Shown here piece after piece: positions 40,168 to 45,957 of a stretch of 50,106 nt of DNA; the stretch's first letter is position 1; each line of letters opens with the position of its first letter. This DNA is from Hyphomicrobiaceae bacterium (lineage in GTDB: Bacteria; Pseudomonadota; Alphaproteobacteria; Rhizobiales; HXMU1428-3): the NCBI GenBank assembly GCA_021775775.1, contig JAJFHF010000097.1:1-50106 (forward strand). The letters are read 5' to 3'. The notes under the pieces are model-generated. The model was given only the letters and a program-made list of their open reading frames with translations. It was not told the DNA's origin and did no database searches. The position numbers were made by a program, and so were the translations under genes.

Positions 40168-40498
40168 AAGCTTATCCGGTGAAGATGAAAAAACTGGGTG
40201 TTTTATTGTAATGATATTTTATGCTTTTTGACAAACTATCTTCACACGATTTTATTTCACCTTCAAATTAAACATGTTGGGGTTCGCCTTGATTTGTGTC
40301 TGTCTGGCCACAATGGTTTTAAAGATTTTTAAGGCCGAGGGTTTGTTACATGGCTGTCATATAAGGCTTTTATAGCTGGGAGCACGTTAATATTTGGAAG
40401 AGATGTTTTGCGTTGTTTCTTAAACAGGGGCGCATTTCGTTTTTTCTCAATAGTAGCTGATTATTGAAATCAATACTGTAACAAATGGAGATTTGATC
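40168..40498. other. Intergenic region between the divergent UbiH-type gene and porin 1
   Basis: About 330 bases that must hold the promoters of both divergent genes. No leader block like that of porins 2 and 3 is present. I saw no hairpin or small gene. Confidence 0.4.
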
Positions 40499-41809
40499 AT
40501 GATTGGGGGATTTATGAATTCCAAAATCTTTCTTGCAGCTGTCCTTACTGGTGGGGTGATGATGAGTGCTGCTGGACCTGTAATGGCTGCTGATTTTGGC
40601 AGCGATTGTTGTGCTGATTTAGAAGAGCGCGTTGCTCTTCTCGAGGCAAGCACAGCGCGTAAAGGTAACCGCAAAGTGTCTTTAACAATTTATGGCAAAG
40701 TCAATCAATCCCTTGGCTATTGGGATGATGGTTTTGATGATGATGTTTATTCTTTTACCAATGATACCTCACGCTCTCGCTTTGGTTTAAAGGGCAAAGC
40801 TAAACTTAATAGCGATTGGTGGGCCGGTTATAAAATTGAAATTGGTGTGCGTTCTGAAGATCAAGGTTCGTTAAATGCTGGTGATGATGATGGAGGTACT
40901 GGTTTGGACATTCGAAAATCGGAATGGACCATTGGCAGTAAGACTTATGGTTCTCTAACCATGGGTGAAACCAGTTTTGCAACAGATGGCATTACACAAA
41001 TTCAAGTTGCCAATATTAAGCATTTTGCCAATCCAGATGTGCTGGATGCTAACGATAGTTTTAATATTCGACAATCTGGTACCGGGGCTAATGTTGGCCA
41101 ATGGGATAATCTGGCTCAAGTCTTTGAACCAGGTGAGGGGTCTCGCGGTAGTATGATCCGCTATGAGACACCAACACTTGCCGGCTTTAAAGTTTCTGCT
41201 GCTTGGGGTGAAGATGATGTATGGAATGTTGCTTTGCGCTATAAGGGCAAATTTAATGACTTTAAAGTTGCAGCTGGTATTGGTTATGGCGAAGCGAGTG
41301 AGAATGATGAAGAGTGTACAGCTGTAGCTGGCGATAGAAAAAATGCTGATTGTCAAGAGATGGGCATGTCAGCTAGCATTAAGCATACACCTTCTGGCAT
41401 TTTCGTAACCGGTGCTTATGGCATTCGTTGGGATGATGGCCGGGCTGAAAACCTTGTTGCCGCTGGTTTTCAAGGGGATGATGAAAATAGCTTTTATCAT
41501 ATCCAAGCTGGTATTGAAGGCAATTGGGTTTCACTTGGTCGGACAACCATCTTTGCTGGGTATTATGACCGTGATGCGGGACATACACTTAGAGATAATT
41601 CTGGTGCTTTAAATGTATTTAACGGTAGTACCATCACTAATTTTGAATTTGATATGTGGGAAATTGGGTTTAACCAACATATTTCAGCAGCGGCGATGGA
41701 TTTTTATATTCACTATAAGGAATATGATGCCGATGTGACGACAGTGGCCGGGGCCCTTGATACGCAAGGGTGGCGCACGCTTATTGTTGGCGGGCATATT
41801 AAGTTTTAA
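40499..41809 (+). CDS. Outer membrane porin 1
   Basis: 436 residues from ATG 40499, with GGAG eight bases upstream. The signal peptide ends VMA-ADFG. The mature N-terminus is FGSDCCADLEERVALLEAS, a short acidic coiled-coil-like segment with a vicinal Cys pair, shared with both paralogues downstream. The rest is a beta-barrel: alternating strands such as VSLTIYGKVNQSLGYWDD, WWAGYKIEIGV and the terminal aromatic strand ending GGHIKF, which is the outer-membrane insertion signal. Acidic loops are rich in Asp/Gly. It should be a trimeric general porin in the outer membrane. It is more divergent than porins 2 and 3 are from each other and lacks their RRNEMFIK and EDFVIINSNG segments. An intrinsic terminator follows. 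Confidence 0.9.
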   Translation: MIGGFMNSKIFLAAVLTGGVMMSAAGPVMAADFGSDCCADLEERVALLEASTARKGNRKVSLTIYGKVNQSLGYWDDGFDDDVYSFTNDTSRSRFGLKGKAKLNSDWWAGYKIEIGVRSEDQGSLNAGDDDGGTGLDIRKSEWTIGSKTYGSLTMGETSFATDGITQIQVANIKHFANPDVLDANDSFNIRQSGTGANVGQWDNLAQVFEPGEGSRGSMIRYETPTLAGFKVSAAWGEDDVWNVALRYKGKFNDFKVAAGIGYGEASENDEECTAVAGDRKNADCQEMGMSASIKHTPSGIFVTGAYGIRWDDGRAENLVAAGFQGDDENSFYHIQAGIEGNWVSLGRTTIFAGYYDRDAGHTLRDNSGALNVFNGSTITNFEFDMWEIGFNQHISAAAMDFYIHYKEYDADVTTVAGALDTQGWRTLIVGGHIKF

Positions 41810-41837
41810 TCATCTTGTCTATGTCTATGATTGCGTG

Positions 41838-41870
41838 AGGAGCCTTGAGATTTTTCAAGGCTCCTTTTTT
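41838..41870 (+). terminator. Intrinsic terminator of porin 1
   Basis: AGGAGCCTTGA (41838-41848), six-base loop, TCAAGGCTCCT (41855-41865), then TTTTT. Perfect stem. Confidence 0.95.
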
Positions 41871-42352
41871 ACTATCTGGTCTGTTTTAACGTGAGAGACG
41901 GTGTGTTTATTTGTGGTTTTCTTATCACAACATTTAAAAACATTTTTAGCTAAGTCTTTGTATTTCCTCATAATTAGAGTCGTTCTAATTCTAAATTGCC
42001 TTAACCTAGCGATCAGGCATTCACAGTCATCTTGTTTTTTTATATATATTTCAAAGGTTTATGTCTTTATAAGGCCGAATGCTGTTGGCTGTTTTCCCAG
42101 TGGTCTTAACGTTTTTGTTTTTGGGATTTTTGGCCTTGGGGTAAATTTTTTTGGGGCGACAATTTAGCTATTGCAGATCTCGGATTAAATACTTATCAGT
42201 TTCATTGCTTGGGGCACATCAACGATATGTCCCTTGGTTAGTGAATCAGGTCAGATTTAATTGATTTGATTTTGTCCAATTGGTTTTTGCCCCAATGGCT
42301 TAGACCAAACATGTGTGCACCTTGAATGCACAATATGTATAAGAGGAAAATA
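41871..42352. other. Intergenic region upstream of porin 2
   Basis: About 480 AT-rich bases. The 88-residue ORF at 41901-42167 is Phe/Leu/Val-rich, has no ribosome binding site and no recognisable family, so I treat it as spurious. The last 40 bases contain the leader block shared with porin 3 and the ribosome binding site AGAGGA. Confidence 0.5.
42316..42338 (+). promoter_or_regulatory. Conserved leader block of porin 2
   Basis: TGCACCTTGAATGCAC followed by AATATGT. The same 23 bases, with one change, stand at 44060-44082 upstream of porin 3. The block contains an inverted repeat, GTGCA-CCTTGAA-TGCAC at 42315-42331. It ends 14 bases before the start codon, so it lies in the leader of the mRNA. 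Confidence 0.6.
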
Positions 42353-43543
42353 ATGAATACGAAACAAATAGCCTACAGTGCCCTAACGAGTGCCCTGTTT
42401 TTTACCCTGCCCACGATTGCACAGGCTGCCGACTTTGGTGGTGATTGTTGTGCCGACTTAGAAGAGCGGGTTGCCGTTTTAGAAGCTACGAGCGCACGCA
42501 AAGGCAATCGCACTATTAAGTTGAAGATCTATGGCCGCGTGAATAAAGCTTTGCTTTTTTGGGATAATGGCCAGGACAGTGATGTTTATAATGTTGATAA
42601 TGATAGTTCTATCGGACGTATTGGTGTGCGCGGAAAAGCGAACATTAACTCACAATGGTCTGCTGGCTATCGCATTGAATTAAGTGTTACGTCTGCGGAA
42701 TCCGATCGCGTTGATGCTGGGCATGAGATACCGGGTAAAAACGATGCCAATGGTGATGATGGTGATGGTGGGCGTATTGAAATACGGCGCAACGAAATGT
42801 TCATCAAAAACAAGACTTTTGGTAGCATCACTTGGGGGCGCACTCATCATGGTATGTACCATACAGCTAAGGCTGATTTAAGTGGCACTCATTTGGTGGG
42901 GCGTAATGATGGGCTTCGCTATATTGAAGATTTTGTCATTATTAACTCCAATGGTAGCGTGAACCAGAATACAGACTGGGATGATATTTTTGCAGGAGAT
43001 TTTGATCTTAGCCGTGACGATGTTATTCGCTATGACACGCCGACAATTGCTGGCTTTAAAGTGAGTGCTTCGTGGGGGGAAGATGATGAATATTCAGTTG
43101 GTGTTTTTTATGCCGGTGAATTTGGAGATATTAAAATAGCAGCCGCTGCCGGTTTTGGTATTGATGAAGAGGGCGACCGCCAGGAAATCCTCAATGGATC
43201 TGGTTCTATTATGCATACACCTACGGGTCTGTTTCTAACCGGGTCTTATGCGACGCGCGAAGATGATGATACCGGTGATGAGGAAGAGACCTATCAAATC
43301 AAAGGTGGTGTTAAGCAATCTTGGAACAGCTTTGGGACCACTGCTGTTTATGGTGAATATATTGGCACTGATGTTGACACTCACGGGGAAGGTGAAATTT
43401 GGGGCCTTGGGGTTGTCCAGAAAATTGATGTTGCCTCTATGGAGCTTTATGCTGGCTATCGTCATTATGAAGCTGATTTAGATAGCGGCGTAGCTACTGA
43501 AGATTTCCAAACAGTGATCACTGGGGCTAGAATTAAGTTTTAA
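42353..43543 (+). CDS. Outer membrane porin 2
   Basis: 396 residues from ATG 42353, with AGAGGA five bases upstream; the track start at 42326 is upstream of that site. Signal peptide ends AQA-ADFG. The mature N-terminus FGGDCCADLEERVAVLEAT repeats the Cys-Cys coil of porin 1. The barrel includes IKLKIYGRVNKALLFWDNG, WSAGYRIELSV, RRNEMFIKNKTFGSITWGR, EDFVIINSNG and a terminal ITGARIKF. It is clearly the closer relative of porin 3, sharing several long blocks. Expected to be a diffusion channel in the outer membrane; selectivity unknown, though Asp-rich loops suggest cation preference. Single gene with its own terminator. Confidence 0.9.
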   Translation: MNTKQIAYSALTSALFFTLPTIAQAADFGGDCCADLEERVAVLEATSARKGNRTIKLKIYGRVNKALLFWDNGQDSDVYNVDNDSSIGRIGVRGKANINSQWSAGYRIELSVTSAESDRVDAGHEIPGKNDANGDDGDGGRIEIRRNEMFIKNKTFGSITWGRTHHGMYHTAKADLSGTHLVGRNDGLRYIEDFVIINSNGSVNQNTDWDDIFAGDFDLSRDDVIRYDTPTIAGFKVSASWGEDDEYSVGVFYAGEFGDIKIAAAAGFGIDEEGDRQEILNGSGSIMHTPTGLFLTGSYATREDDDTGDEEETYQIKGGVKQSWNSFGTTAVYGEYIGTDVDTHGEGEIWGLGVVQKIDVASMELYAGYRHYEADLDSGVATEDFQTVITGARIKF

Positions 43544-43578
43544 AGTCGCTTGATTTTGCTATCTTTTCAATAAAGTTT

Positions 43579-43607
43579 AAAGGGCTCCTTTGGGGGCCCT
43601 TTTTTAT
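43579..43607 (+). terminator. Intrinsic terminator of porin 2
   Basis: AAAGGGCTCC, loop TTTG, GGGGCCCTTT (one G-U pair in RNA), then TTTTTA. Confidence 0.9.
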
Positions 43608-44098
43608 TTCTGGGTTGATCAGCCCGCTGACCTTATTGTGGTGTTCTGATCACATGTTTAAGAAATGCATTTTTGCGCCTGTGTTTGTATTGTTAAAAAT
43701 GGTCAGGTCATTCTTATGTTTTTCTAATTGAAATTGAGACCTATTTTGCTCGGTCTTTATTTTTGTTAGTGTGTTTTATTCGTTTCATTCCAATTGATTA
43801 TATAAAAAAATTGTACTGGCTAATTGTTCCAGTGATATGGATTAATTCGCGTTATCATTTGTTTGTTTAGAGAAAATGGTGGGTATCTATTTATGGCGTG
43901 GAATTAATTGTGTTTGCGAAGGGGGCTCGAATCATTGTCAGTTTTGAATGGTGCTGCGTTATATTATTTGGGGTTTTTAATAAATAAAATTTGTAGGTTA
44001 TTTGAGGGGATCTTTTATTTTAGGGATGCCTCTCAACATTCATTTTGAGTAAATATTTATGCACCTTGAATGCACGATATGTTTTTGAGGGGATAATA
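43608..44098. other. Intergenic region upstream of porin 3
   Basis: About 490 AT-rich bases with no convincing gene. The end carries the porin leader block (44060-44082) and GAGGGG, the ribosome binding site of porin 3. The long spacer implies an own promoter for this gene. Confidence 0.45.
44060..44082 (+). promoter_or_regulatory. Conserved leader block of porin 3
   Basis: TGCACCTTGAATGCAC followed by GATATGT; 22 of 23 bases agree with the porin 2 block. TGCA-CCTTGAA-TGCA forms an inverted repeat. It ends 16 bases before the start codon. Confidence 0.6.
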
Positions 44099-45289
44099 AT
44101 GAAAAAAATATATTTACTGTGTATAGGGATGATAAGCGGTTTAATTTTAAATTTTGGAACTCAAGTTTTCGCGGCTGATTTTGGCGGTGATTGTTGTGCC
44201 GATCTTGAAGACAGGGTTGCTCTTTTAGAAGAATTATCGGCTCGTAAAGGCAGCAGCCGAACGTCTTTGCAAATATATGGTAGTGTTAATCGTGGCTTAT
44301 TGTATTGGGATAATGGCCACGATAAAGACGTTTATTCAGTGAATAATGATAGCATTGAAAGCCGAATTGGTTTTCAAGGAAATGCTAATATTGATTCTGA
44401 ATGGTCGGTTGGCTATCGCATAGAATTAGGGATCCATGTCTCTGATTCAGATCGGGTTGATGCCGGGCATCGAATCGTGGGTAAAAATAACGCGCATGGT
44501 GATGATGGCGATGATCGTATGTTTGATTTGCGGCGCAATGAAATGTTTATAAAAAGCAAATCATTGGGGAAGCTTACCTGGGGGCGAACAAATCATAGCC
44601 TCGATGATACCAGTAAGGTGGATTTAGGGGGCACTAATATTGTGGGTCGTAATGATGGCAATCGATTTATCGAAGACTTTGTTATCATAAATTCAAATGG
44701 GACCGTTAATCAAAATACTGATTGGAGTGATATCATTCCTGGGAACCTTGAATATGCTCGTGATGATGTCATTCGATATGAAGCGCCAACAATAGCAGGT
44801 TTTCGGGTGAGTGCCACATGGGGCGAGGATGATGAATATTCATTTGCGGCCTTTTATGCCGGCGAATTTGGCGGCGTTAAAGTCGCGGCAGGCTTTGGTT
44901 ATGGCATAGATGATGATGGCGATCGCCAAGAAACCATTAATGGCTCAATTTCACTGCTTCATATGCAAACAGGCCTATTCTTCACTGGCTCATATGGCAA
45001 TCGTGAACATGATAATTCTGGCGCTGAGGAAGATGTTTATCAGATTAAAGCTGGTTTGAGGCAGACCTGGAATTCTTTTGGGAAAACCATAGTGTATGGT
45101 GAATATATAGGAACCAAAGTGGATAATCATGGCGATGGTGAAATTTTTGGTCTTGGCGTTATTCAAAAAGTTGATACTGCAGGGATGGAATTGTATACAG
45201 CGTATCGCCATTATGAAGCTGATCTTGATAGTCAAGTTTCAACTGAAGATTTCCAAACATTGATAACTGGGGCACGGATTACTTTCTAA
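44099..45289 (+). CDS. Outer membrane porin 3
   Basis: 396 residues from ATG 44099 (MKKIYLLCIGM), with GAGGGG six bases upstream; the track begins 18 codons earlier at a TTG inside the leader block, which is unlikely. Signal peptide ends VFA-ADFG, then FGGDCCADLEDRVALLEEL, the same Cys-Cys coil. The barrel follows porin 2 block by block (VDAGH, RRNEMFIKSKSLGKLTWGR, GRNDGNRFIEDFVIINSNG, WGEDDEYSF) and ends ITGARITF. It is a duplication product of porin 2, older than a very recent copy because many synonymous and conservative changes are seen. Outer membrane channel; own terminator. Confidence 0.9.
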   Translation: MKKIYLLCIGMISGLILNFGTQVFAADFGGDCCADLEDRVALLEELSARKGSSRTSLQIYGSVNRGLLYWDNGHDKDVYSVNNDSIESRIGFQGNANIDSEWSVGYRIELGIHVSDSDRVDAGHRIVGKNNAHGDDGDDRMFDLRRNEMFIKSKSLGKLTWGRTNHSLDDTSKVDLGGTNIVGRNDGNRFIEDFVIINSNGTVNQNTDWSDIIPGNLEYARDDVIRYEAPTIAGFRVSATWGEDDEYSFAAFYAGEFGGVKVAAGFGYGIDDDGDRQETINGSISLLHMQTGLFFTGSYGNREHDNSGAEEDVYQIKAGLRQTWNSFGKTIVYGEYIGTKVDNHGDGEIFGLGVIQKVDTAGMELYTAYRHYEADLDSQVSTEDFQTLITGARITF

Positions 45290-45315
45290 CTTTCTTGGGC
45301 AATATTTGTAGGTTT

Positions 45316-45342
45316 AAAAGGCACTCATTGGGGGCCTTTTTT
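45316..45342 (+). terminator. Intrinsic terminator of porin 3
   Basis: AAAAGGC, loop with ACTCATTGGGG, GCCTTTT then TT. The stem is shorter than in the other two porin terminators but has the same position and the same GGCCT-type right arm, in keeping with duplication. Confidence 0.75.
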
Positions 45343-45579
45343 ATGACTGCACTGTGAGAATTACTACGAACGGATTGAAAAAATGCGGTTTTATTATGAA
45401 TGTGTGACATTTTTTTGTTGCTAATATGATACATGCATTTTTATGTTCGGCTTATATTACAAATTTTTCAATAAGTTAGTTGTGTATAAGTAAAGCTTGC
45501 ACTTAATTGTTATCAATTGCATATTGAATTGCATGAGCCTGGGGTGATTCGCTCATGTAATTTAATTGAGGTCAGTTTT

Positions 45580-45957
45580 GTGAAACCGTTATTTGCCATC
45601 GTTATGGCAGTGTTTGGGGCATTTTTCTTTCATGTCCAGCATGCCTATGCCTTCCAAGAATCGGAAGTGGCTGTTACTGCGCCTGAACGCAGTACAGATG
45701 GGCAAGGTTTGGCGCTTAAGCAAAATCTATCAGCTAAACAAAAAGGTGCTGCAGCTCTTGCAGATGTTCACAACAATTCCAACTATAAGAAGAAACAAGG
45801 TCGAACCCTTTATATACCAGGTTTTGGTACTATAGGGACCTTGCCTCAGTTGGATTTTGGACTTGAGCTGCTTTATCAAGATGAAGAATTGCGCGCTTCA
45901 GAGCGTGCTAAAGATGATGACTTGGCCATTAAAGGGCGCATTAAGCACAAGTTTTAG
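45580..45957 (+). CDS. Small exported protein with an outer-membrane-type C-terminus
   Basis: 125 residues from GTG 45580, with GAGGT seven bases upstream; the track's start at 45517 lacks a ribosome binding site and would place 21 residues before the signal peptide. Signal peptide KPLFAIVMAVFGAFFFHV with likely cleavage at AYA-FQ. The mature part is hydrophilic, then has IPGFGTIGTLPQLDFGLELLY, an acidic turn, and the last strand LAIKGRIKHKF. The ending Phe after alternating residues resembles an outer-membrane beta-signal, but the protein is too short for a barrel by itself. I do not recognise the family. It stands alone between porin 3 and the convergent mobA gene. Confidence 0.65.
   Translation: MKPLFAIVMAVFGAFFFHVQHAYAFQESEVAVTAPERSTDGQGLALKQNLSAKQKGAAALADVHNNSNYKKKQGRTLYIPGFGTIGTLPQLDFGLELLYQDEELRASERAKDDDLAIKGRIKHKF

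Follow-up and report, generated by a model that had tools for sequence, protein, structure and literature searches.

Why would two of three adjacent porin genes carry the same short sequence just ahead of their ribosome binding sites, and the third lack it? Porin control is a main route by which Gram-negative bacteria tune entry into the cell, and apparently little is known of it in marine Hyphomicrobiales. The window analyzed here is a stretch of 50,106 nucleotides that makes up one entire contig (G000:C263) of a 2.7-Mb genome. It contains a tandem of three porin genes, flanked by a UbiH-like gene and a small ORF, then MobA-like and FdhD-like genes; these neighbors are presumably what their names say, the names having been read off the translations. 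The porin genes are:

40499–41809, plus strand: porin 1, block absent, upstream start ATG-ATT-GGG-GGA
42353–43543, plus strand: porin 2, 396 amino acids, Pfam Porin_4
44099–45289, plus strand: porin 3, 396 amino acids, Pfam Porin_4, sister to porin 2

The start of porin 1 is most likely the upstream ATG at 40499 (MIGGFMNSK...), the same start type as in the porins of congeners. Porins 2 and 3 form a sister pair (support 100/100) and are closer to each other than either is to any congener's porin; the pair is the product of a lineage-specific duplication. Their proteins are 65% identical and their fourfold-degenerate sites 37% identical, and divergence at these sites is near saturation.

Despite this divergence, the leaders of porins 2 and 3 share a block of consensus TGCACCTTGAATGCAC-RATATGT, in which they agree at 22 of 23 positions. 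The initial annotation had assigned the block to these two leaders, without porin 1, and placed it just 5' of the ribosome binding site. Both points hold: the block is not present in the porin 1 leader, and it precedes a Shine-Dalgarno-like sequence in each of the other two. The features of the two leaders, with the Shine-Dalgarno-like sequences as read in the sequence, are:

41907–41964, plus strand: second patch common to the leaders, porin 2 side, with TTGTG-N10-CACAA; opens TTATTTGTGGTTTTCTTATCACAACATTTAAAAACATTTTT
42314–42332, plus strand: inverted repeat TGTGCA-CCTTGAA-TGCACA, leader 2 only
42316–42338, plus strand: the block in leader 2, TGCACCTTGAATGCAC-AATATGT, starting 37 nt before the ATG
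42342–42347, plus strand: Shine-Dalgarno-like AGAGGA of porin 2
43633–43691, plus strand: second patch, porin 3 side, aligned to the patch at 41907
44060–44082, plus strand: the block in leader 3, TGCACCTTGAATGCAC-GATATGT, starting 39 nt before the ATG
44087–44093, plus strand: Shine-Dalgarno-like GAGGGGA of porin 3

A 16-base core is identical at 42316–42331 and 44060–44075. The local alignment of leaders 2 and 3 spans 40 nt (31/40 identical) and scores 45, against a top score of 41 among 2000 pairs of dinucleotide-preserving shuffles. When leader 2 is queried against its own genome, the sole significant second place is leader 3 (E 7.5e-5; the next match has E 0.04). Identity is 16/16 and 6/7 inside the block, falls through 6/10, 9/20, 9/30, and 9/40 moving outward upstream, and is 7/14 on the downstream side; in the first 30 bases of the coding sequences it is 14/30. 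The edges of the block are thus sharp. The surrounding spacer had been described as diverged beyond alignment by eye; this does not hold throughout, as the second patch, roughly 450 nt before each start, is alignable.

Is the block simply what is left of the duplication? Residual homology, or a small patch of gene conversion that serves no function today, would fit the sisterhood of porins 2 and 3, the second patch of similarity that persists in their distal spacer, and the lack of the block in every relative examined. The neighborhood of the block argues otherwise. Since fourfold-degenerate sites are only 37% identical, a 22/23 block is unlikely to be passive homology; with 0.37 as the identity per site, the probability that a given 23-mer agrees at 22 or more positions is about 5e-9. 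The flanks are 23–60% identical, and gene conversion would have to have involved an unusually short tract, about 25 nt long. We consider a functionless remnant improbable: judged from the sequence, the block was presumably kept by selection, or by a very short conversion tract, with passive leftover homology unlikely. The initial annotation had tied residual homology to a lack of conservation in relatives; the second half of that pairing is borne out, and the saturated surroundings oppose the first.

Relatives were covered at several depths. The 23-mer, with up to 3 mismatches, was not found in seven other genomes of the genus, which are metagenome-assembled Hyphomicrobiales. The syntenic locus is readable wholly or partly in six of the seven, with two porins in G001, G006, and G007 and one in G004; contig ends fall inside it in G002 and G003. 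The block is also absent from the 78 porin loci that ranked best among named genomes, and a search of 398 genomes of the order at the same tolerance returned two matches only, both in unrelated contexts (one upstream of a gene for a GntR-type regulator, the other within a gene for a dnaQ-like exonuclease) and consistent with chance. None of the relatives examined yielded a 1:1 orthologue of porin 2 or 3, so the absence of the block from them is not a fair test of its conservation. The case for conservation comes from a single paralogue pair in one species.

Within the genome itself, the proposed search for the block found the exact 16-mer core in two copies, both at these porin leaders. Allowing 3 mismatches adds 16 further places, against roughly 20 estimated by chance. 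Searches with the 16-mer, with TGCAC-N6-TGCAC, and with looser cores gave no sign of a regulon, most matches lying inside ORFs. The companion check for a complementary small RNA came back empty: places in the genome nearly complementary to the block occur at chance number and mostly within ORFs. The literature search on TGCAC repeats and porin leaders in this group found nothing specific.

What, then, does the block conserve? The initial annotation had pointed to an inverted repeat, which is real in leader 2, where TGTGCA-N7-TGCACA gives a 6-bp stem and the TGCA/TGCA pairing probability is 0.79–0.99. Leader 3 retains just TGCA...TGCA, and there the probability is 0.00; its CCUUGAA can pair instead with UUUGAGG of the ribosome binding site. 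Since the stem is not formed in leader 3, the inverted repeat is not the conserved feature, and a hairpin element common to both leaders was set aside. What the block conserves is primary sequence, not structure. It is very unlikely that the conserved feature is a structured RNA hairpin ahead of the ribosome binding site, even with the well-formed stem of leader 2 and with a hairpin at the same place in several congeners' porin leaders (z as low as about -5); for porins taken as a class, upstream hairpins are only marginally enriched (53 porins versus 88 controls, p = 0.02). Rfam 15 covariance models run over 40168–45600 gave no family at gathering score, and nothing at the block even when matches with E as high as 5 were admitted.

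Other folds were seen in and around these leaders. In congeners' first-porin leaders (porin starts at L048 7774, L047 8920, L016 1459, and L023 1459), a stem GAACCTT...AGGTTC with a varying loop lies just before the ribosome binding site, with z to about -5. Leader 3 holds TTTGAGGGGAT twice, at 44001 and at 44084 over the ribosome binding site, and between them, at 44029, the complementary CCTCTCAA, which could pair with either copy; in a test fold with the first copy blocked, CCTCTCAA was not paired with the ribosome binding site. Downstream of porin 3, the leader of the small ORF (45500–45580) folds unusually well (z about -4.1) and holds TTGCATATTGAATTGCATG, which is loosely block-like.

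A sequence-specific site may act as DNA or as RNA. Read as DNA, the block consists of two 11-bp direct repeats, TGCAC-CTTGAA and TGCAC-RATATG, with TGCAC at block positions 1 and 12 of both copies. This is the arrangement of an OmpR/PhoB-type box, two direct repeats at an 11-bp period; the spacing is exact, the two units cover 22 of the 23 conserved bases, and conservation of primary sequence rather than structure suits a DNA-binding protein. In addition, the genome has a sigma-54 gene, and the block retains GCAC...TGCA at sigma-54 spacing. An operator or promoter element for a protein, with OmpR/PhoB-type geometry or as a poor sigma-54 promoter, is possible on these grounds, and we lean somewhat against it. 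TGCAC-N6-TGCAC occurs 5 times in the genome, about the chance number, and the other three places are within ORFs, so that further OmpR/PhoB-type sites, sought as strict TGCAC repeats, do not stand out from chance. Only 14–16 nt separate the end of the block from the ATG, a gap that holds the ribosome binding site, and a sigma-54 promoter here would yield a leader of about 12–14 nt.

Two promoter classes were tried at the block and rejected. For sigma-54, both copies have TG in place of the -24 GG and match at 8 of 12 positions, and a 9/12 site lies elsewhere in the same spacer. For sigma-70, similar sites in the region do not exceed those in shuffles.

Other elements lie further upstream. TTGTG-N10-CACA(A) occurs in all three porin spacers (IG1 at about 40293, 41908–41930, and 43634–43656); this imperfect dyad of fixed spacing is possibly an upstream operator. 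The porin 1 leader (40168–40495) has a PhoB-box-like GTTACATGGCTGTCATATAAGGCTTTTATAG, which aligns with the strongly conserved part of first-porin leaders in the congener loci compared (L047, L048, L016, and L023).

Our best guess is that the block is a short, sequence-recognised cis-regulatory site, with action in the mRNA leader slightly likelier than action on DNA. Its distance to the ATG is nearly constant, at 37 and 39 nt. In the congeners' first-porin leader two parts are conserved, a distal one with a PhoB-like box (GTTACAGAACTGTCATATAACTCTTCTAAATCTG) and a proximal one that directly precedes the ribosome binding site, and a large indel lies in the stretch between them; this pattern looks like a distal promoter followed by a long transcribed leader. 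The common distal patch of leaders 2 and 3 also counts for RNA action, as does nucleotide-level constraint at the translation start of the group's porin genes; against it count the lack of a conserved RNA structure, of an Rfam family, of a complementary RNA, and of the block in any relative. A coding explanation was discarded: the 2-nt difference in distance to the ATG puts the two copies in different frames, and reading from the ATG within the leader 3 copy runs into a TAA ahead of the porin start.

In the model that we favor, the site would have been present in the porin 2/3 lineage before the duplication, and both copies would have been retained since something recognises their sequence. 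Most likely it would act within the 5' untranslated part of the mRNA, immediately ahead of the ribosome binding site, where a small RNA or RNA-binding protein may dock on the block and jointly tune the translation or stability of the porin 2 and 3 mRNAs. That the block is transcribed in both porin mRNAs and acts on translation we infer tentatively, at a little short of even confidence. The initial annotation's proposal of a site for a small RNA or protein acting on translation survives in part: a functional cis site is the best reading, given its position before the Shine-Dalgarno sequence and conservation beyond chance and beyond neutral expectation, and the hairpin falls away. The site is most likely a small, putative regulatory sequence at the level of the species.

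The constraint at the translation start is best seen in related porins. Among 53 Hyphomicrobiales porins whose start is backed by a ribosome binding site (loci L047–L131), 36 begin M-x-G-(G/E); these are related sequences, not independent ones. Codon 3 is GGG in 36/36, and codon 4 is GGA in 29, GAA in 5, and GGT in 2, which makes GGA the choice in 29 of the 31 that encode glycine there. Deeper in the same genes, GGG accounts for 4.5% of glycine codons and GGA for 5.5%. The residue at codon 2 varies (I, F, T, Y, V). This codon choice points to selection on nucleotides, probably on GGGGGA in the RNA, and not on protein, and it is a stronger RNA-level signal than the porin 2/3 block. Porin 1 carries the GGG-GGA start (ATGATTGGGGGA at 40499–40510); in porins 2 and 3 the M-x-G-G / GGGGGA start is gone, and the block sits in their altered start region. 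This loss and the block may be connected; we think it doubtful that the block is a lineage-specific post-transcriptional element that arose when the start was lost, as a new recognition site that took over joint translational control of the two duplicated porins.

Having outlived the saturation of its surroundings, the block gives a search for the porin pair's regulator a small and well-defined target. In itself it is a finding of an ordinary kind: a single conserved cis site, present in two copies in one species. How does it compare with known sites? PhoB/OmpR-type boxes are two direct repeats at an 11-bp period, with CTGTCAT as the PhoB half-site. The block resembles them in its two TGCAC repeats at exactly 11 bp and its 22-bp extent; it differs in half-site sequence and in lying between the promoter region and the ribosome binding site, close ahead of the start codon, rather than at -35. 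The sigma-54 (-24/-12) promoter consensus is TGGCACG-N4-TTGCW, and the block has GCAC and TGCA at matching spacing; however, TG replaces the -24 GG, only 8 of 12 positions match, and equal or better matches lie elsewhere in the spacers. NtrC sites read TGCAC-N7-GTGCA; the block shares TGCA arms with them, but 7 bp rather than 9 separate its arms, and leader 3 does not retain the outer dyad. The site of VrrA on Vibrio cholerae ompA is a small-RNA target in the mRNA leader of an outer-membrane protein (PMC2628432). No small RNA is known or was found for the block, which, unlike sites of the VrrA/ompA type, is limited to two duplicated porins of one species; the likeness is that of a short, unstructured-sequence site near the ribosome binding site of an outer-membrane pore gene.
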